NCBI GenBank assembly: GCA_004524445.1
Contig: SDNP01000004.1
Location: 39,596-103,595, forward strand
DNA length: 64,000 nt
Origin: Candidatus Thorarchaeota archaeon
GTDB taxonomy: Archaea; Asgardarchaeota; Thorarchaeia; Thorarchaeales; Thorarchaeaceae
Direction of reading: 5' to 3'
The notes beneath the pieces were generated by a model. It did not search any database. It saw nothing but the letters and a program-made list of their open reading frames with translations, and had not been told where the DNA came from. Within the stretch, counting starts at the first letter, position 1. Each line of letters opens with the position of its first letter. Positions 26,583-37,645 of this stretch are shown piece after piece. A program made the translations under genes and the position numbers.

Positions 26583-27593
26583 TCAGGTTCCGAAGAATAA
26601 TCGCCTAGCTCTGCGCTTCCGCTCTTCCTCGCTATCGTCAGTTTCAGGTGGCGGCGGAGGCGGAGGGGGCGTTTGTTTCTCATTTTCTTCTGTCCCATCT
26701 GAAGCTTCGCCAACATCTTCGTCCTCCAAGTCCTCATCATCTTCTAATTCCTCGGGCACCGGCGGTTCATCCATCGGACTCCAAGATTTAGGTGCAGACA
26801 TTGATTCCTTCTCCGTGTATTCACCTTCGGAAGTTTCATCCATTTCTGACTCGTAGTCTTTCCAAGTGAAGGATGGTTCATCAGAATCCTCTAAATCAGA
26901 TGTGTCCACATCTTCTTCAATCTCAGAGTCTGTTTCCTCATGGCCAATAGCATCCGAGTCTATTGGTGCTACTTCTGCAATAGTATCTGCAGTTTCTATT
27001 GGCTCTTCACTTGAGGGCTCAGCGGGCTCTGTTTCTTCCAATTCATAGGGCATTGGCTCAGCTACTTCAAAATCCTCTTCGAAATCGCGTGCCTCACCAT
27101 CCGTCAATGATTCTTCACTCATTGAGGCAGTAGTTCCGGCGATTGAGTCAACCATGCCAGAAGACGATTCGTCTACAGATAACTCGTCATGTTCTTCTTC
27201 CGTCAAGTACTCTTCGTCGGATTCTTGTTCATACTCGGCATCTTCTGGAAAATGGCTGGATTCGAAATCCGTTCCGGGATGCTCATCTTCCAATTCTTCA
27301 TCTTCCTCATCAGCGTATTCTTTGTCATCTTTTTCCCTGTCGAATCTCAGACCTAGCTGTTCACTAAGACAGCTTTCACATCGTTTCGCAGCTGCAATCA
27401 GTCCATCATGAATAAACTCTTCGAGGGTTTTTGCATCCGCTTTGTATCTGCTTGACCATTTTACAAATGAATCGACCATTCTAAGGGCATCTCGGACACC
27501 CATCCAGTATTCATCTGATTTCTTCTTCTCGGAATTCAAATCGAGCACCACTCCGGAGCTTGTGATATATTGAGAAAAGGGTTTCCATAACAA
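26583..27593 (-). CDS. highly acidic low-complexity protein with polyproline and basic C-terminal tail
   Basis: 336 aa; residues ~100-300 dominated by E/D/S; C-terminus PPPPPPPPPETDDSEEERKRRARRLFFGT. Confidence 0.8.
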   Translation of the reverse strand: MLWKPFSQYITSSGVVLDLNSEKKKSDEYWMGVRDALRMVDSFVKWSSRYKADAKTLEEFIHDGLIAAAKRCESCLSEQLGLRFDREKDDKEYADEEDEELEDEHPGTDFESSHFPEDAEYEQESDEEYLTEEEHDELSVDESSSGMVDSIAGTTASMSEESLTDGEARDFEEDFEVAEPMPYELEETEPAEPSSEEPIETADTIAEVAPIDSDAIGHEETDSEIEEDVDTSDLEDSDEPSFTWKDYESEMDETSEGEYTEKESMSAPKSWSPMDEPPVPEELEDDEDLEDEDVGEASDGTEENEKQTPPPPPPPPETDDSEEERKRRARRLFFGT

Positions 27594-29007: not shown

Positions 29008-29490
29008 ATGCAATTGAGTGTGTCTTGTGTGGTCAACGTAAGAATCCCCGGGGTTGAAGATTTATCAAGAATCAACGAGATAGAGGAGGAAAGTTTCCCA
29101 CACCCTTGGAATCCAGATGTATTTCAAGACATTGTGGAGTATCAAGGCAAACTGATGCTCGAAGGTGCAATCATCCGAATGATAGTGGCGACTAAGCAAG
29201 ATAGAGTTGCAGGATATATTGTATGGACAGAAGGTCGGAATCTTTCCGAAGGGCATATCCTCAATATTGCAGTCAGGAAAAAGCTATGGGGTCGGGGTAT
29301 AGGTCGCAAGCTACTTGAGTATTCAATAGACTCCATGACTCAGCAGAATATGAACCAAGTACGTCTTGAAGTGCGTGAGGGCAATTTGAGAGCCAGAGAG
29401 TTTTATGAACAACGGGGATTTCAACAAAAGGGCAGGTTCCCCGCCTATTATGAAGATGAGGATGCACTCTGCTATTATTTACGTCTTTAA
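29008..29490 (+). CDS. GNAT N-acetyltransferase, RimI/Ard1-like
   Basis: NEIEEESFPHPW...GHILNIAVRKKLWGRGIGRKLLEYSID...NQVRLEVREGNLRAREFYEQRGFQQKGRFPAYYEDEDALCYYL. Start at MQLSV preferred. Confidence 0.9.
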   Translation: MQLSVSCVVNVRIPGVEDLSRINEIEEESFPHPWNPDVFQDIVEYQGKLMLEGAIIRMIVATKQDRVAGYIVWTEGRNLSEGHILNIAVRKKLWGRGIGRKLLEYSIDSMTQQNMNQVRLEVREGNLRAREFYEQRGFQQKGRFPAYYEDEDALCYYLRL

Positions 29491-32400
29491 TTCTTTGCGG
29501 CTGGTGATCATCTTAGGACCGATGACATCTCGATAGAGATTCAAATACGACTGGTCGCGTGAAACTATGAATAGCTGGTCCTCTTGCAAAGCACCGCCAA
29601 GAAGGATTTCTCGACTGTCAATCACAGCAAGTGCCATTGGGACAGACGTCTGCCAGATTCTCCAACCCTTGAGTACATCCAGTTCTGGAGATGGTTCGTC
29701 GCTTTCGGGGACAACCAATATCCTACGACCGGGCTCCTTAATTCTAGAGAGTTTCTTGAGATCAAGACAATCGGTCGAGAATACAGAAAGAAGCACCGAG
29801 TTTTCTGCTCTATTTGCCATGTCCTGCATATGAGCACATGCCTCCTCCTCGCCAGAAATATACCAAGTATCTTTAGTAGGAATTAGAGCCAATTCCTTTC
29901 CTGCTTCATTAATGGCTTCGATTGAATTAACAGTATTCGTGCCAGCAGTTTTTGCCTTCTTAATAGCATCTTGCAGGCTAGTTCTGATTTTGGTTAGTGT
30001 CTGTTTCCTGCTGGCAGCCCAGTCTTTGAAATCAGCAGTCGATTCATTGCGAGTAGAGGTGAATTTCTCAGAACGTATCTCACGAAGATTGGATGTTGAT
30101 TCGGTCATATCAGCCATAGCTCCTTCTCCGGTCTTACTCAGATTGTCTATTTTTGCTGATACGCTGTTACGAATCTCCTCATTGATTCCATATGCCTTGC
30201 TACTGAATTCTGCTTTCAGGTCGAGTCCTATTGATTCAAATTTTCGAGCGGCTTTTTGGTTGGCAAGCATTACATTCTGTTGAGTATTTTCGAATAGAGT
30301 CCTCCTCGAACGGGTCATCTGTGCGACAATCCGCTTTAACAGACTCTCAAATTCTTCAGCGGTAGTATCAGCTAGAGCGGCGACCTCAACAAAGCCAGCC
30401 TTCATATCATCTTCAGCTTGCTCCACCTCTTCTCGAGCAGGACTAATTATCTCGATTAGGCTCTCTGAAACCAGTTGTGAAGTTGCTTCAGCAACATTTG
30501 CCAGTTCATCCATGGTCTGGTTTATTGATGCATCACTAGTGGAGCTGAAGTTATCAAGGGTTGCCCTTACCCGCCCCTCGTTCTTTGATAGCATATTCTG
30601 AACAATGGTTTCAAGTTGACCCGCCTGACTCTCTCCAAATTCGTTAAGAGACTCCAATGACTCATCTGCTGATTTCTGTAGTCCTTGCCGCATTACAGCA
30701 ATATCGCCATTGAGTTTTGTTGCCAACTCGTTTACAGAAGAGGATACATTCTTCGTTGTTTTGTTGATATAGGAGGAACTCGATTCGATTGCCTTTCTTG
30801 ACTCAACTTTTCTCTCATCGATTGATGAGAGAACTTCATCTCTAGCAGATTCATGGGCAGCTAAAACCTCTTCTTCTCTATCAGTAAGGCTTTGCTGGTA
30901 TTCGCCAATCTTCTCAGAAGTTGATTGAATAACTTCACCAGCAACATTATCCATTTTCTTGCTAGTATCTGAGAGCACCCGCTGCCAAGATTCTTGTTCC
31001 CCAGAAATGTACGAGTCTATTGTATTACGAACTCCTGTTGAATTTTTAGTCAGAATATCCTCAGTTTCCTGACCGAGAGAGGATAAGCGCCCAGAAACAT
31101 TATCTCTTGCACCAAGAACAGAAGTATGGAACTCCTTGGATACTTTGACTAAGTTGTCACCAAAGTGTCTGACAGTGGAAGCTTCCAGTTCAGCAAGTGA
31201 TTCTTCAGTTTCGCTGAGTCCTCCATTAATTTCTTGTAGAACCATCTCTGATGATTTGGAGATATCCTGTTTCTTCTCTGTCGTGAATTCGTCGAGCATT
31301 CTCCGCATTGCCGCCAAATTATCCTTAACCTTGTCAACACGTAGACCAACTTCGGAGGCGAATTCCTGTTGTAGTTTGATTGAATCTTCATCCAGACTTT
31401 CCATTTCGGATTTCAGGGAATTTTTGAACTCAGTATGAGCAGACGAAATCATGTTTCTTGCCTCAACAGCTTGGCTCGACAGAAGTCCATTGAATGTCGA
31501 TTCGATGCTTTGAGTCAATGATATGAACTGACGAGTGATATCCTCTAATTGAATATGGAGCTCCCCGCGCATTTCCTCAGCGTGACTATCTATTCTCGAA
31601 ACTTGTTCACTGATTGTTTGATCAACTTCCTTCTGGACTCGGGCATAATGTGAATCTATTGTTGAAACGCTTTCAGCCAGACGTTCATTCAGCTTGGCGT
31701 TAAGCATATCGTATACAGTTTCAGCCTTCCCAACTTGTTTTTGAGCGGAAGTTAGATATTCTTGCGTTATCTCATCCAATACGGAGTTTATACTAGTTTC
31801 GTATTCATTGGTAGAAACTTCGATTTTAGATAGGATCGCCTCGTTCCTAGTGGCAGTCGATGAACGAACACCAGAAAATGATGATTTTACTCGATTCGTG
31901 AAACTCTCAGCTAGCTTGCCCAATTCATTCGATTCATTCTCGAGAACGCTACTGATTTCTTTTGTGGCGCCCTGTACTTTTTTATCAATATTTCTGCCTG
32001 CTTTGGAGCCCCATTTCTCAAGGTCCGCATCAAGCTTCTTGCTTGTTTGTTCCAACCTGACGGTTTGAGCCTCAGCCTGTTTGTTGAGAAGGCCTGCGAC
32101 ATTAGAACGTGCCTCATTGATGAAAAGCTCTGTGTTGCTAGAAATCCCTCTTGCCATCGAGCGCAGTTCTGTATGTTCCTCTGTTGTTGTTGCACTCACT
32201 CGGTCAAGGTGACCGCTGATGATACTTCTCATAACTTCATGGAAGCTATTTTGACCATTGGCAAGTTGATCAAGCTGAGATCTCATCGATTGCTGCGTTG
32301 TTTCCACTTGCGATGTGACCTCTTCTTTCCATGCGTCAATTCCTTCATCTGTGTCCACAGTAGTGGCAATGGCGGATTCAATTCTCTTCTTGGTAAGATC

Positions 32401-33378
32401 TGCATGCCTTCTATTGAATTCCCTAGCTGTGCTAATCACTTCTTCGAGCGATGCTTGAGCTTCAATGGATGCTTGAGAGAGGTCAGTTTCAGCTTCAGTA
32501 GTCTTGCTTTTGAGATTCTCGGAGAGAAGCATTAGTATCTCTGAAATTTCGTTGGAGGTTTCGAGAGCGTGGGCGTCCATTTTGGATTGGATTTCTTCGG
32601 TAGTGGATCTGAGGGAGGCTAACGTTTCAGAAGTTGCTTTGATAACAGCATTCTTGGCGGCATTAATGAATGCATCAGTTCTTTTCTTCAACTCAGCGAC
32701 AGATGTCTTCACTTCTTTCTGATCATGTTCTAGGGATTGGTCATATTCTTTGGCAAGGGCATCATTTTGTTCCTTTAGCTGATTTTGAGTGGCATCGAGC
32801 TCGGCATGCAGTTCAGCCAAATCAGTACCAATAGTCTCTTCAAGTCCTTCATCCAGACCGGAAAGAATCTTTGACAATTCTTCGTTGTATTCATTCAGGG
32901 TTTTGTTGGTCGATGAAACAACAGCATCGACTGTGCTCTTCAGTTTATGGAGAATACCTTCTTCATAATCAGTATAGATGCCCTGCAATTCACTATCCGC
33001 TGCCTCGTAAGAATCTAAGAGGCTCTCTACCATTTGGTCGGTCTTTTCAGCATGAGATTTCAACTCCTCTGTCTTTGATACAGAGATTTCTTCTAGTTGT
33101 GTAATCAATGTTGAAACCGACTCTGAGATCGCTGTAAGTGGGAGGATTGCCCGATAGATCGTGACTACTCCCTCTATTGGTTCAACAAGCCCTTTCTTTT
33201 CCAACCGTTTCAAGGCTCGTTCGACCTTGTCCAGACCCTCATTCAAAATAAGAGCCACTCCGCCTGCGGTCATGTTCCCTCCTCTTATTACTGGGAGGAG
33301 CACCAAGGCTTCAGTTTTTGACAGTCCTAAATTTTCCTTCAATACCGGAATTGCACGAATACTTTTGCTTTTGCTCAA
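29479..33378 (-). CDS. giant coiled-coil protein with N-terminal TrmB-like winged-helix and C-terminal TrmB/PLD-like domain
   Basis: 1299 aa. N-term LGLSKTEALVLLPVIRGGNMTAGGVALILNEGLDKVERALKRLEKKGLVEPIEGVVTIYRAI (wHTH); ~1000 aa of Ser/Thr/Glu/Lys-rich heptad-like sequence; C-term DTWYISGEEEACAHMQDMANRAENSVLLSVFSTDCLDLKKL...RRILVVPESDEPSPEL...VPMALAVIDSREILLGGA. Confidence 0.85.
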   Translation of the reverse strand: MSKSKSIRAIPVLKENLGLSKTEALVLLPVIRGGNMTAGGVALILNEGLDKVERALKRLEKKGLVEPIEGVVTIYRAILPLTAISESVSTLITQLEEISVSKTEELKSHAEKTDQMVESLLDSYEAADSELQGIYTDYEEGILHKLKSTVDAVVSSTNKTLNEYNEELSKILSGLDEGLEETIGTDLAELHAELDATQNQLKEQNDALAKEYDQSLEHDQKEVKTSVAELKKRTDAFINAAKNAVIKATSETLASLRSTTEEIQSKMDAHALETSNEISEILMLLSENLKSKTTEAETDLSQASIEAQASLEEVISTAREFNRRHADLTKKRIESAIATTVDTDEGIDAWKEEVTSQVETTQQSMRSQLDQLANGQNSFHEVMRSIISGHLDRVSATTTEEHTELRSMARGISSNTELFINEARSNVAGLLNKQAEAQTVRLEQTSKKLDADLEKWGSKAGRNIDKKVQGATKEISSVLENESNELGKLAESFTNRVKSSFSGVRSSTATRNEAILSKIEVSTNEYETSINSVLDEITQEYLTSAQKQVGKAETVYDMLNAKLNERLAESVSTIDSHYARVQKEVDQTISEQVSRIDSHAEEMRGELHIQLEDITRQFISLTQSIESTFNGLLSSQAVEARNMISSAHTEFKNSLKSEMESLDEDSIKLQQEFASEVGLRVDKVKDNLAAMRRMLDEFTTEKKQDISKSSEMVLQEINGGLSETEESLAELEASTVRHFGDNLVKVSKEFHTSVLGARDNVSGRLSSLGQETEDILTKNSTGVRNTIDSYISGEQESWQRVLSDTSKKMDNVAGEVIQSTSEKIGEYQQSLTDREEEVLAAHESARDEVLSSIDERKVESRKAIESSSSYINKTTKNVSSSVNELATKLNGDIAVMRQGLQKSADESLESLNEFGESQAGQLETIVQNMLSKNEGRVRATLDNFSSTSDASINQTMDELANVAEATSQLVSESLIEIISPAREEVEQAEDDMKAGFVEVAALADTTAEEFESLLKRIVAQMTRSRRTLFENTQQNVMLANQKAARKFESIGLDLKAEFSSKAYGINEEIRNSVSAKIDNLSKTGEGAMADMTESTSNLREIRSEKFTSTRNESTADFKDWAASRKQTLTKIRTSLQDAIKKAKTAGTNTVNSIEAINEAGKELALIPTKDTWYISGEEEACAHMQDMANRAENSVLLSVFSTDCLDLKKLSRIKEPGRRILVVPESDEPSPELDVLKGWRIWQTSVPMALAVIDSREILLGGALQEDQLFIVSRDQSYLNLYRDVIGPKMITSRKELKT

Positions 33379-33418: not shown

Positions 33419-34225
33419 TTAGGTTTGCTCTACAAGACCTGCAACCAACTCAAATAGATTTTTCAGTGAAGATATCTTCACAGGAGGCTGAATGTTGTCA
33501 ACAACAGCCTCAACCTCTACAATCAATGAATCCTTCTCGCTCTTGGCAATGGCAACTTCAAACAGACGAGAAATATTCTTCTTAAGAGGACCTATTTCTT
33601 CTTTGGAGAACGTCCCTTTAGCTTCTATAGTAAGAATCCACCAATTCGTGGTTAAGTCACTCACTCTGGCGTCCAGATTGAACCACTTTGAAAAGAGATT
33701 GGAATATAGCTTGAACGCATTGAAATCCAAAATAGCTTCATTTAGCGGGTTGATCAACACGATGCCTCTTTCGAAATCAAAATGGAAAATATTGCCATTC
33801 CCAGCGACCAACATTACATTATTCTCGTTGACTTTGGAATAGTTTTCCCACTCCTTCTTGAACTTGGAATTGAAGTGCCTAATCGAGCTTACTCTTAGTG
33901 TCGATAACAGGTCCTTAATGGGGAGTCTCTTATCTTTCATAACCCGACCCCTCTGGTCCAAAATATACCGACGTACTTGGTCGAGGTACTGCGAATAGCA
34001 GAACTTGGGTAGGTTCTGGGGTTCAACCCCTAGCTCGATTAATACATTTAGGAAGTTCCGATCTTTACAAGCTGGACGGACAGTACAGCTCAGACGATCC
34101 TCCTGGCATGCCTGGCACTTGACAGAGTACAACTCCATCATATCTTTGGCCAATTCGCTATCAGCTTCGATATTCAGAATATCTATCCGTTCAGCCAAAT
34201 CACCCTTATGTTCAACAATTCTCAT
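33419..34225 (-). CDS. uncharacterised protein with N-terminal Cys cluster
   Basis: 268 aa; CQACQEDRLSCTVRPAC near N-terminus, then mixed alpha/beta; same strand, 40 nt from the giant coiled-coil gene. Confidence 0.75.
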   Translation of the reverse strand: MRIVEHKGDLAERIDILNIEADSELAKDMMELYSVKCQACQEDRLSCTVRPACKDRNFLNVLIELGVEPQNLPKFCYSQYLDQVRRYILDQRGRVMKDKRLPIKDLLSTLRVSSIRHFNSKFKKEWENYSKVNENNVMLVAGNGNIFHFDFERGIVLINPLNEAILDFNAFKLYSNLFSKWFNLDARVSDLTTNWWILTIEAKGTFSKEEIGPLKKNISRLFEVAIAKSEKDSLIVEVEAVVDNIQPPVKISSLKNLFELVAGLVEQT

Positions 34226-34386: not shown

Positions 34387-35475
34387 CTAGCCCTTCTGCA
34401 GCTTTTTAGACCAGTCGCGAAGATCCTTGTTGAGTCGTGCAATATCATTTTCATTCAAGGTAGCAGTTGGCGGATATGACTTCAGCTCACGCGCGCGCTT
34501 TCCAAACTGAAATAAAACGGGGGTATGACCCTCAATTAATGTCGTTAGCTTATCCCTAACCTGCTCAAGAGCCCTTGCCATTTCCTTTGCTTCAGTTTTT
34601 GGATTTACCAGATTCTTCAAGTTTGCCATCAATCCATCAATATCTGAGGGTAGTTCGTCGGGCCTGGGTGATTCCGATTCACCATTCTCTTCAGAAGAAG
34701 TCTTTTTTTGCACAGGTTTCTTCTTTGATGCCGTGGAATCATTGTGTGCTTCATCCAATTTGTCGAGAGCGTCCGATAAGTCCTCAATAGTCTTGTTGTA
34801 TTTTCTTTCTATATCGTCAAGCTGACGGACGATTATGCTCACTATTTCTTTGGTTTCGGAAAATGATACGGACATCTCATCTAGGCGCTCTTCAAGAACA
34901 GATAGACCAGCAACATACTGCTGCATATCTTCAATCTTCTTTTCCAAGACATCCAGTTTCTGGGTTTTAATCTCGTTGATTCCTTCGTCAACGGATTCCA
35001 TTTTCTTTAGCAGACTATCTGTCTTCTTCTCAAGTTCGTCACTCTCGCTCGCTTCAGCAAGTGCGTTCATATCTGCCTTCAAGTCATTCACTGCTATCAG
35101 GACATCATCAATTTTCTTGAACATAACCTCAGTTTCTTTGGCATCCAGAATTTTTGAAACCTCTTTATCAAGTGCCTCCAAATTCTTTGAGAGTCCATCA
35201 ACCTTCTTGTCAATGGCATCCATTCCTTTTGAAGTGTCAGATTCATCTATTGCCTTCTCAAGACCGTCAACAGACTTCAGCAAATCATCGACCTTGGATA
35301 CAGATTCCATCTGTGAAGAAACAGCTTCTATCTTATCTTCCATGGAGCTGACTTTTTCATCAATGTCGGAAAGAGTCGAGAGAGGTTCCAATGCGTCTTT
35401 CATCTCTGCAACTTCCTTACCGAGATTGTCAATCTTTTCATCGAGTTCGGAGATTTTTTTACTCTCGCCTGACAT
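34387..35475 (-). CDS. coiled-coil protein
   Basis: 362 aa; repeated KIDxLxKEVxxMKDxLE-type heptads through ~240 aa, then a basic/globular C-terminus. Confidence 0.8.
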   Translation of the reverse strand: MSGESKKISELDEKIDNLGKEVAEMKDALEPLSTLSDIDEKVSSMEDKIEAVSSQMESVSKVDDLLKSVDGLEKAIDESDTSKGMDAIDKKVDGLSKNLEALDKEVSKILDAKETEVMFKKIDDVLIAVNDLKADMNALAEASESDELEKKTDSLLKKMESVDEGINEIKTQKLDVLEKKIEDMQQYVAGLSVLEERLDEMSVSFSETKEIVSIIVRQLDDIERKYNKTIEDLSDALDKLDEAHNDSTASKKKPVQKKTSSEENGESESPRPDELPSDIDGLMANLKNLVNPKTEAKEMARALEQVRDKLTTLIEGHTPVLFQFGKRARELKSYPPTATLNENDIARLNKDLRDWSKKLQKG

Positions 35476-35567: not shown

Positions 35568-36422
35568 TCAAACGTCTCTTGCACGTATTATTTCTATGTC
35601 GAATTTCTCGAGAAGGGGGAGAATATTATTACGCTGTGAGGATTTGGTGCCTTTCCAATCGATAATAGCTGACTCAATAGTTTCAAGTGACCTACCTATC
35701 ATTTGCTTTGCGACTTCTTCAGTCATATTTTCCAGGGCATATTTTGGAGCCATGTGGCCGAATATTGCTTCGCCCCCTAACACCATTTTATTGAATTTGC
35801 TGACATAATGAGTCCCCCCAATTCCTATAGAAGCAGTCTTGGAGAAGGGTTCGCCACTGCAATCAACTGCGGCTTTTGCTACGGCGCTGGCTCCGCCTCT
35901 ATGTTTCCAGTATGTTTCATCACTTCCAAGTTCTACGAACACCAGAGGAGTGCTCATCGATGTAGGACCATGATGAGTAGCTTCCATAGACACGTCAAAT
36001 TCAGCCAAGTCATTGTCTTCTTGAGCGTCGTTGAGGGACTTGAGGGCTCTTGACACGAGGCTTGCAGCAGAAATCGATAACGTTGATGGTTCGCCGCCAA
36101 ATCTTGCCTCTGAGCCGAGATTACCCGTGCTATGTGTTAGGAGGGCTGGCTTTCCAGATTTTGACCGATGTCTGGAACAGAAGATATACGCCTCTGCTTC
36201 GAAATGTTTGTCAAGATGATTTGTAAGAATCAAATCACGGGCACTGGTTACTAGCTTGGTATGTTTGTTCATAGCCCATATAGGATTGCTATCGAATGTT
36301 TCTCCTGTTTCCTCGAATCCAAACTCCTCTATGAGTATTTTCCGAATTGTAAGACTTGCGATATCCTTCTCAGAAGTGACGAGAACTCTCAAGAAGGCAC
36401 CTCTTTCGCCTTCGTGCGACAT
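35568..36422 (-). CDS. dtdA: D-aminoacyl-tRNA deacylase, archaeal/plant type (DTD2/GEK1)
   Basis: AYIFCSRHRSKSGKPALLTHSTGN, SMEATHHGPTSMSTPLVFVELGS, GIGGTHYVSKFNKMVL. Confidence 0.9.
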   Translation of the reverse strand: MSHEGERGAFLRVLVTSEKDIASLTIRKILIEEFGFEETGETFDSNPIWAMNKHTKLVTSARDLILTNHLDKHFEAEAYIFCSRHRSKSGKPALLTHSTGNLGSEARFGGEPSTLSISAASLVSRALKSLNDAQEDNDLAEFDVSMEATHHGPTSMSTPLVFVELGSDETYWKHRGGASAVAKAAVDCSGEPFSKTASIGIGGTHYVSKFNKMVLGGEAIFGHMAPKYALENMTEEVAKQMIGRSLETIESAIIDWKGTKSSQRNNILPLLEKFDIEIIRARDV

Positions 36423-37645
36423 TTCGCCAGAAGAGGCTCCAGTCCATGGTCTTCTATCTCAATGTGAACTCTCTCATCAAATGCCTTCTTGATTTCTATC
36501 TCAATTCTTCGCTTAAAGACTTCGATTTTCTCCATCTGACGTTCGATGTCATCCGCAATTCTCAACAAGTCATTCTTGTGATATTCCAGATTCTTCTTAG
36601 CTTCGTTCACTTCTTCCTGGAGTTTCTCATCACGCCTGTACACATCTGATTCAGCATATTCCCGACGTTTTTTCTCAATTTCTTTTGCTTGCTGCTGCAA
36701 GTCCAGGAGCATGCCATCTCGGATTGCCTCAATTTCCTCGACTGCTCTTCGGGCTAAACGATCCTTTATCTTCAGTGTATCCTTCTCAACTGCCTTCTCT
36801 ACTCCAGCAAGACCCTCAAGAAGCGCGGGATGTCCATCAGGCTCTTCAACTATTGCCGTGTAGGGCTCCTCCCAGTAGTCATTGAGCGCCTTCTGACCCG
36901 AGGGCCCGACCATGACCCCTGTATCTTGTTGTGTAAATTTCTTCACAGGCTTTCTGAGTGTATTCAGTTTCATCTTCAAGACAACTGCAACATGGTCAGC
37001 ATCCTCATCCAAATTCAAGAGATCTGAAACATTAGACTTCTCTTTGAAGTCAACATATGTCTGCTTTGATCCGTCATACTCTTTACGAGCCTGTTCCATC
37101 TTCATGGTTACTTGTCTAATCTGTTCTTCAAATTGCTCTTTGCCATAAGTCAGGTCTTTCAGCGTATCGATCCTTGAGCCAATTCTTTCGAGGTCTTTGA
37201 CCCATGAATACTCGAAGAGCAGCTTGCTGAGATTCTTCATCTCATTAGCTAGTTCCTTCATGTAGACGTCTAGTTGTTTGATGGTACCCTTGTGACGTTT
37301 ATCCATCCTTTTTATCCATCTAGCTCCCGCCCCCCATAGTTCTTGGATGAAATCCTGAATCTCTTCCTGCATCTCTTCTGTGCTTTCGTAGGTTATGTCG
37401 CTTTTTACTTCAAAATCATCAACAGTTTCCCGAATCTTGAGAGCAAATCGGGTTGCAATTCCTAGTGCTTCTTCGTCGTCTTCTTCGCTCTCATCTCTTA
37501 GCTGTGTGGCTATTGAATCGACATCTCGAAGTGACCGCTCAACCGATTTATAGCTCTTTTCGGCTTCCTTAATGAAGTCCTTAGACTCATCTTGCAGGCG
37601 GTTCCGATACCATTCTTCGAGTTCAGGGATTGTTAATTTCTTCAT
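36389..37645 (-). CDS. coiled-coil protein overlapping dtdA
   Basis: 418 aa; several long charged helices with heptad spacing (KEQFEEQIRQVTMKMEQARKEYDGSKQTY; QQAKEIEKKRREYAESDVYRRDEKLQEEVNEAKKNLEYHKNDLLRIADDIERQMEKIEVFKRRIEIEIKK). Confidence 0.85.
   Translation of the reverse strand: MKKLTIPELEEWYRNRLQDESKDFIKEAEKSYKSVERSLRDVDSIATQLRDESEEDDEEALGIATRFALKIRETVDDFEVKSDITYESTEEMQEEIQDFIQELWGAGARWIKRMDKRHKGTIKQLDVYMKELANEMKNLSKLLFEYSWVKDLERIGSRIDTLKDLTYGKEQFEEQIRQVTMKMEQARKEYDGSKQTYVDFKEKSNVSDLLNLDEDADHVAVVLKMKLNTLRKPVKKFTQQDTGVMVGPSGQKALNDYWEEPYTAIVEEPDGHPALLEGLAGVEKAVEKDTLKIKDRLARRAVEEIEAIRDGMLLDLQQQAKEIEKKRREYAESDVYRRDEKLQEEVNEAKKNLEYHKNDLLRIADDIERQMEKIEVFKRRIEIEIKKAFDERVHIEIEDHGLEPLLAKCRTKAKEVPS

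Follow-up and report, generated by a model that had tools for sequence, protein, structure and literature searches.

TrmBL2 is an archaeal chromatin protein in which a winged helix (wHTH) is followed by an amphipathic dimerisation helix and a C-terminal domain (PMC4877046). This protein of ~30.6 kDa, a tetramer when taken from its host, coats DNA as stiff filaments without cross-bridging (PMC4877046). In Sso10a, an antiparallel coiled-coil rod bears the wHTH domains; DNA is bridged by Sso10a1 (PMC4941522).

A gene in the window (the whole stretch of Thorarchaeota DNA analysed, 64,000 nucleotides) encodes a protein, here called the rod protein, that resembles each of these systems in part. It shares with TrmBL2 (TK0471 / Pyrococcus furiosus TrmBL2; 5bpd, 5box, 5bqt) the domain order and the absence of a sugar-binding subdomain, and TrmBL2 is matched by its winged helix in profile searches and best by its C-domain in Foldseek. 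Unlike the compact TrmBL2 of ~265 aa with its one short helix, the rod protein has 1299 aa and a hendecad helix of ~1060 residues, whose pairing is predicted to be antiparallel along the full length. The sugar-responsive regulators TrmB and TrmBL1 (3qph, 2f5t) have a homologous winged helix and PLD-like lobe, but differ in their extra sugar-binding subdomain and vastly shorter helix. As in Sso10a, a crenarchaeal chromatin protein, winged helices would lie at opposite ends of an antiparallel rod if the inferred homodimer forms; Sso10a, however, is about 10 kDa with a short rod and no PLD-like domain, and no homology is claimed. Long antiparallel coiled-coil arms, strictly kept length and terminal domains that meet are features of SMC proteins as well, yet the rod protein is without an ATPase head or hinge domain. 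Its ends gave no SMC or ATPase match in Pfam and NCBIfam, its centre is a continuous hendecad helix, and genuine SMC genes are present separately in the same genomes. The features of the gene are as follows.

29479..33378, minus strand: gene for the wHTH - hendecad rod - PLD-like protein, 1299 aa, TTG start at 33378
33145..33342, minus strand: TrmB winged helix, residues 13-78, supported by Pfam, PDB matches and conservation
29899..33096, minus strand: hendecad (11/3) rod, residues 95-1160, supported by periodicity, phase, absence of indels and a register test
31309..31581, minus strand: best-conserved rod segment, residues 600-690, containing the predicted two-fold axis at ~618.5 (charge complementarity and covariation), with continuous helix phase
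29482..29877, minus strand: PLD-like / TrmBL2-like C-terminal domain, residues 1168-1299, supported by AF2 and Foldseek, a sub-threshold PF11495 match and Asgard-wide profile matches

The original prediction had placed a 1299-aa protein at 29479-33378. A single open frame of 1299 codons does span this interval, but the strand had to be corrected: the frame runs from 33378 down to 29479 on the minus strand, and stops occur throughout the plus strand. Full-length orthologs were found in nearly every sampled Thorarchaeia genus, which excludes a chance ORF; their open frames measure 1297-1341 aa, with one of 1574 aa. A frameshift or assembly artefact was ruled out by the 35 distinct Thorarchaeia orthologs. 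Below, Thor-A denotes the rod protein of this locus, Thor-B a second Thorarchaeia paralogue and Loki-B a third family.

At the N-terminus, residues 13-78 matched Pfam PF01978 with E 1.5e-9 and a score of 38 bits (cut-off 25.6), thereby meeting the criterion for a TrmB superfamily winged helix. A profile of 17 orthologs searched against the PDB matched TrmB 3qph (4.7e-6) and TrmBL2 5bpd (1.8e-4), so that the earlier assignment of the first ~80 aa to a TrmB winged helix was borne out. Among 35 orthologs, basic residues occupy position 54 in 83%, 58 in 80%, 62 in 100% and 76 in 89%; the mean net charge of the winged helix is only about +1.7. At the other end, where a TrmB/PLD-like domain had been proposed for the last ~110 aa, about 130 aa take this fold according to AF2 and Foldseek. 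Using the AF2 model of the C-domain (pLDDT 78), Foldseek returned TrmBL2 as the top match (E 3.8e-8), followed by PLD-family nucleases, TrmB 3qph and the TrmB sensor 2f5t. The corresponding Pfam family, Regulator_TrmB PF11495, matched the C-terminus weakly, in 7 of the 17 orthologs with E no better than 0.0038, and scored 14 bits against a cut-off of 22.2 on the 1299-aa protein itself. A sequence search of the PDB with the C-terminal domain gave no match, and the domain has neither an HKD catalytic motif nor, as in TrmBL2, the extra sugar-binding subdomain of TrmB/TrmBL1. No carrier of the C-domain was confirmed in viruses. The idea of a TrmB regulator split into two halves was abandoned, as winged helix, helix and C-domain follow one another in the usual TrmBL2 order with the helix lengthened.

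The intervening ~1060 residues are helical, rich in Glu and Ser and poor in Pro (0.2%), in agreement with the Ser/Glu-rich middle of ~1000 aa first described. They are not heptad-like, as was then thought: the period is 3.66 residues per turn, or 11/3, with phase kept over the entire stretch, which rules out a heptad coiled coil in favour of a hendecad. The hydrophobic stripe is narrow, with three main core positions of 11, and no hydrophobic stretch suggestive of a TM segment was seen, judging by composition only and not by formal TM prediction. If fully helical, the rod would be about 158-160 nm long. Pfam assigned it to Apolipoprotein PF01442 (E 9.5e-32), a family of 11/22-residue amphipathic helices. 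This score is attributable to the common 11-residue period, the one criterion for such lipid-binding helices that the rod meets; it lacks Pro-punctuated repeats, a broad hydrophobic face and a variable repeat number. Apolipoprotein membership was rejected, as only the period is held in common.

The length of the rod is locked. Residues 21-1160 are free of indels in 34 of the 35 Thorarchaeia orthologs at a median rod identity of 31%, and in the register test the ungapped alignment was best in 354 of 368 windows. The sole length change in Thor-A (1/35) is a tandem duplication of 232 residues that spans roughly 504-737 and is centred within 1-3 residues on the predicted axis at the rod midpoint; length changes in Thor-B also sit near the rod centre. 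In the best-conserved segment, H608, Q617, F618, I619, E626, F629, H648 and F651 are invariant among the first 17 full-length orthologs. In a neighbouring 362-aa coiled-coil protein, used as internal control, the median number of indels is 6 although identity is 48%, which rules out constant length as a general coiled-coil trait, while SMC from the same genomes has none at 64% identity. By these controls, length locking is typical of antiparallel machines and not of coils generally. A search of Asgard genomes, as originally suggested, found C-domain profile matches in 164 of 228, making the family Asgard-wide; the length of the rod is specific to the lineage and ranges over ~500-1520 residues.

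Antiparallel pairing of the N-arm with the C-arm is well supported. Charge covariation in Thor-A gave an antiparallel peak of z 5.2-5.8 at centre 618-618.5, against a best value of 3.2-3.3 elsewhere, and was strongest among the most distant residue pairs. Thor-B served as an independent replicate, with z 5.8 at centre 521.0 (n=10 sequences). The centre follows a simple rule, (wing Gly + first C-domain Trp - 5)/2, which yields 618.5 in Thor-A, predicts 521.0 in Thor-B in exact agreement with observation, and gives 351.5 against an observed 352.5-353.5 in Loki-B. The Loki-B family also carries paired insertions, one pair of 44+44 and another of 11+11 residues, placed at mirror sites on the two arms. 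Some results were weaker. The peak in mean charge was lost under a narrow flank definition; individual charge tests in two further lineages (f17 and f28) were not significant, with the rule-predicted centre among the top peaks. As positive control, SMC gave a mean-charge centre at 597 (z 3.0, P 0.13), and the covariation test, with 8 close sequences only, did not recover its hairpin, leaving the sensitivity of the test unproven.

Upstream of the rod gene lie the following genes.

33419..34225, minus strand: 268-aa Cys4 protein with C37, C40, C47 and C53 invariant, directly upstream across a 40-nt gap, supported by synteny
34387..35475, minus strand: the 362-aa coiled-coil protein of variable length, kept in the Thorarchaeia gene block
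35568..36422, minus strand: D-aminoacyl-tRNA deacylase of DTD2 type (Pfam PF04414, E 2.4e-63), a conserved neighbour by synteny
36389..37645, minus strand: 418-aa helical protein, function unknown, a conserved neighbour with identity of about 60% across Thorarchaeia

In about ten Asgard families the Cys4 gene is kept next to the rod gene, and its product is likely a functional partner of the rod protein. It belongs to no Pfam or NCBIfam family, and its AF2 fold has no match in the PDB. The DTD2-type deacylase is probably functionally unrelated.

Beyond the computed domains, hendecad rod, locked length, antiparallel arm pairing and Cys4 gene linkage, we favour, with a probability of roughly 0.6, an antiparallel TrmBL2-type homodimeric rod that acts as a DNA bridge or tether; homodimer, DNA binding and bridging are inferred. 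The short amphipathic dimerisation helix of a TrmBL2-type protein would have grown into the ~1060-residue hendecad rod, and two antiparallel chains with a two-fold axis at residue ~618.5 would form a straight rod about 158 nm in length. Antiparallel chains bring the wHTH of one next to its partner's PLD-like domain, so each end would be a composite TrmB-like unit. Such a rod would most likely serve the Asgard chromosome as a bridge or tether that is passive and needs no ATP, holding at a fixed large distance two DNA segments or, alternatively, DNA and a second structure to which the Cys4 partner or the PLD-like domain binds. By analogy, the protein might be regarded as a giant, TrmBL2-built counterpart of Sso10a. 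The link to DNA is inferred from conserved basic recognition-helix positions, the chromatin protein as top fold match and the Sso10a analogy; there is no direct binding evidence and the low net charge of the winged helix counts against it, and a DNA-organising or tethering role, as originally proposed, remains the best reading.

The covariation and matched insertions are compatible with any antiparallel N-arm/C-arm pairing, including an SMC-like intramolecular hairpin in which the chain folds at its centre, the winged helix meets the PLD-like domain, and an apex about 80 nm away is possibly anchored to a membrane or partner (a DNA-to-X tether). SMC in the same genomes likewise lacks indels, and the Loki-B centre is loop-like, with a phase break, an indel hot spot and the aromatic/basic loop FFWLGKKKK; relatives such as Loki-B may be hairpins. 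For the Thorarchaeia proteins we consider this fold unlikely: the hendecad phase runs unbroken, without a loop, through the centre of Thor-A and also of Thor-B, the Thor-A apex would hit a helix-favouring conserved R-Q-F-I, and the Thor-A duplication would put it on ordinary rod sequence. The preference for a Thor-A homodimer is thus an inference, resting mainly on helix continuity. A parallel dimer, with winged helices at one end and PLD-like domains 158 nm away as a DNA-to-partner tether, draws mild support from the in-register mean-charge score (z 2.4-2.9) but is very unlikely, as covariation gave no parallel signal at small shift against a strong antiparallel one in two families, and the indels seen are mirror-paired or central instead of the whole-hendecad changes in one arm expected of it.

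Two further readings remain. A TrmB regulator of the ordinary transcriptional kind, responsive to a ligand and carrying a long linker, would account for the winged helix and the TrmB-family C-terminal domain; it is very unlikely with the sugar-binding subdomain missing, as in TrmBL2, and a phylum-wide locked rod that simple repression would not obviously need. Almost no credence is given to an apolipoprotein- or perilipin-like helix lying on membranes or lipid droplets, whose winged helix would then serve to bind proteins. The Apolipoprotein match speaks for it, against a narrow stripe (about 3/11 positions), near absence of Pro and invariant repeat number, and a surface-lying helix has no need of long-range charge covariation between arms.

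The homodimeric rod model is directly testable, since it specifies the two-fold axis residue, cross-linkable residue pairs (i with ~1237-i) and the rod length. The mirror-paired insertions are an unusually clear evolutionary trace of how the arms of a giant coiled coil pair in antiparallel fashion. To our knowledge, Asgard chromosome organisation is largely unknown apart from histones and SMC. No counterpart of the rod family was found in Pfam/NCBIfam models or the literature searched, with genome scans limited to Asgard. Only tentatively, the family may be extended to phylum-wide, ATP-free, double-ended Asgard chromosome spacers: antiparallel homodimeric hendecad rods, tens to about 240 nm long depending on lineage, with TrmBL2-like ends built in trans from two chains, which together with a dedicated Cys4 partner would keep DNA segments a fixed distance apart, and with paralogues anchored instead to the membrane by their central loop. 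If the homodimeric rod model is right, the rods are protein rulers on the scale of the chromosome, in a family widespread among Asgard archaea.

The rod gene is a genuine open reading frame of 1299 aa, as the original prediction held for 29479-33378, with the strand corrected to minus (33378 down to 29479, TTG start). The TrmB winged helix proposed for its N-terminus was recovered at residues 13-78 (Pfam PF01978, E 1.5e-9), and the winged-helix profile also matches TrmB (PDB 3qph, E 4.7e-6) and TrmBL2 (5bpd, E 1.8e-4). The proposed TrmB/PLD-like C-terminus found support mainly from modeling. PF11495 matches the last ~130 residues only below cut-off. In the PDB, the AF2 model of these residues (pLDDT 78) is closest to TrmBL2, described as "an archaeal chromatin protein" (E 3.8e-8); PLD-family nucleases rank next, then TrmB itself. 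The middle had been read as heptad-like; its hydrophobic period is instead 3.66, or 11/3, making it a hendecad rod. This period is kept across about 1060 residues; the phase shifts once around residues 300-360 and again, slightly, around 830-880. Pfam reports Apolipoprotein on the rod because the repeat is hendecad.

The C-domain profile finds matches in 164 of 228 Asgard genomes; for the winged-helix profile the figure is 113 of 119. Most of the relatives that carry a name are Candidatus Thorarchaeota MAGs, from which a Thorarchaeia origin of the window is inferred as most likely. A search of Asgard for the same architecture, suggested earlier as a check, identified a winged helix, proline-poor rod and C-domain in all 19 homologues examined outside or paralogous to Thor-A (the window's own rod family), with a period of 3.65-3.68 in each and rods of ~500 to ~1520 residues. 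Protein lengths are lineage-specific: for example, most members of one large family measure 755-766 aa, and those of another 1916-1921 aa. Open frames of 1300-2092 aa encode many other Asgard winged-helix proteins (e.g. G095:C83, G190:C178, G191:C4), which suggests that each genome has several additional rod paralogues. In one complete Thorarchaeota chromosome (L025, CP070658.1), the rod ORF stops early, with a frame of 994 codons and a match that runs to residue 903, and none of the usual neighbours turned up in the fetched flanks. No description of the rod family was found in the open-licence papers searched.

Gene order around the rod gene (20758-45000) is strikingly conserved across Thorarchaeia and includes an aminotransferase, GNAT, small proteins, DTD2, coiled-coil proteins and others. 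Three of the proteins encoded in this interval are:

33419-34225, minus strand, Cys4 protein of 268 aa, encoded 40 nt upstream of the rod gene
34387-35475, minus strand, length-variable 362-aa coiled-coil protein with weak NCBIfam similarity to SpiroCoCo, Rad50 and ASRP coiled-coil models
26583-27593, minus strand, protein with a conserved ~70-residue stretch and no family match

The Cys4 protein carries four invariant cysteines (C-x2-C-x6-C-x5-C), has no match in Pfam, NCBIfam or PDB folds, and is present in 148 of 228 Asgard genomes, nearly always in single copy. Its homologues directly precede rod genes in Thorarchaeia and in Asgard families f3, f4, f6, f9, f18, f20, f21, f24 and f26; in the genomes inspected from f2/f23, f17 and f28 they are not adjacent to a rod gene. 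The relative of the 26583-27593 protein in L016 bears a long tail that is acidic and probably disordered.

Rod length is locked in Thor-A. Over residues 21-1160, 34 of 35 distinct orthologs have zero gaps, and the median identity within the rod is 31%. An aligner artefact was rejected as the cause: across 368 windows, each 88 residues long, the best ungapped offset is zero in 354, with the exceptions near noise. In the controls, the median indel count was 6 for the neighbouring 362-aa coiled-coil protein (48% identity), 2 for a 418-aa protein and 0 for the DTD2 enzyme; SMC of the same genomes showed none at 64% identity. The one change of length is a tandem duplication of 232 residues (65% identity between copies), whose midpoint lies within 1-3 residues of the Thor-A axis; it is a natural test of antiparallel register. 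Its carrier is a 1574-aa ortholog (L158, genome G200) with a doubled rod centre.

Three kinds of sequence evidence, namely charges, geometry and indels, agree on the inferred ANTIPARALLEL pairing of the rod arms. A first, exploratory mean flank charge score peaked at antiparallel centre 618 in Thor-A; the peak stayed at that centre with the conserved middle removed (P 0.03-0.05), was kept in each half of the sequence set, and was lost under a narrow flank definition. Charge covariation between positions, a separate statistic, has its Thor-A maximum at 618.0-618.5 (z 5.76). Without a helical-wheel assumption, z is 5.2-5.5 among 1730 sums (3.2-3.3 elsewhere). The signal is greatest in the most distant residue pairs, and parallel pairing gave none comparable in Thor-A. 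The covariation scripts involve several parameter choices, the shift-based null corrects only partly for relatedness, and the SMC control was underpowered. A geometric rule fitted on Thor-A, centre = (wing Gly + first C-domain Trp - 5)/2, predicts 521.0 in Thor-B (the second Thorarchaeia copy), where covariation peaks at 521.0 (z 5.8, 10 sequences), and 351.5 in Loki-B (the ~760-aa f2 copy), where a weak peak lies at 352.5-353.5. By this rule the rod ends lie flush, with winged helix beside C-domain in each family. In Thor-B, changes of rod length are confined to the region around the centre; close Loki-B relatives show indels at the centre, 1-2-residue changes elsewhere, or mirror pairs of whole hendecads (44+44 in one genus, 11+11 in another), confirmed by independent pairwise alignments.

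Such arms could belong to two chains or to one folded hairpin, and the argument between these is inferential. The hendecad phase runs unbroken through the centre in Thor-A and Thor-B, and the Thor-A centre (Q617-F618-I619) is helix-favouring and among the rod's most conserved sequence, which together favour two chains over a turn. At the Loki-B centre the phase breaks, the loop is variable and aromatic/basic residues occur, a picture that resembles a hairpin tip. In L062, L075 and related ~760-aa Loki-B proteins, this aromatic and basic loop (FFWLGKKKKYKAR) occupies residues ~345-360, at the rod midpoint, and could be a membrane- or nucleic-acid-binding tip.

TrmBL2 is ordered as a winged helix, a long amphipathic dimer-forming helix and a C-terminal domain without the sugar-binding subdomain, the same succession as in the rod protein (PMC4877046). 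In the chromatin protein Sso10a, an antiparallel rod carries winged helices at its two ends, and Sso10a1 bridges DNA (PMC4941522). Basic residues are conserved on the recognition helix and wing of the rod protein's winged helix; they support DNA binding and do not show it. Combining the TrmBL2 layout with the Sso10a precedent, it is proposed that the protein would form a ~158 nm double-ended rod, each end a composite TrmB-like unit, that may bridge or tether DNA.
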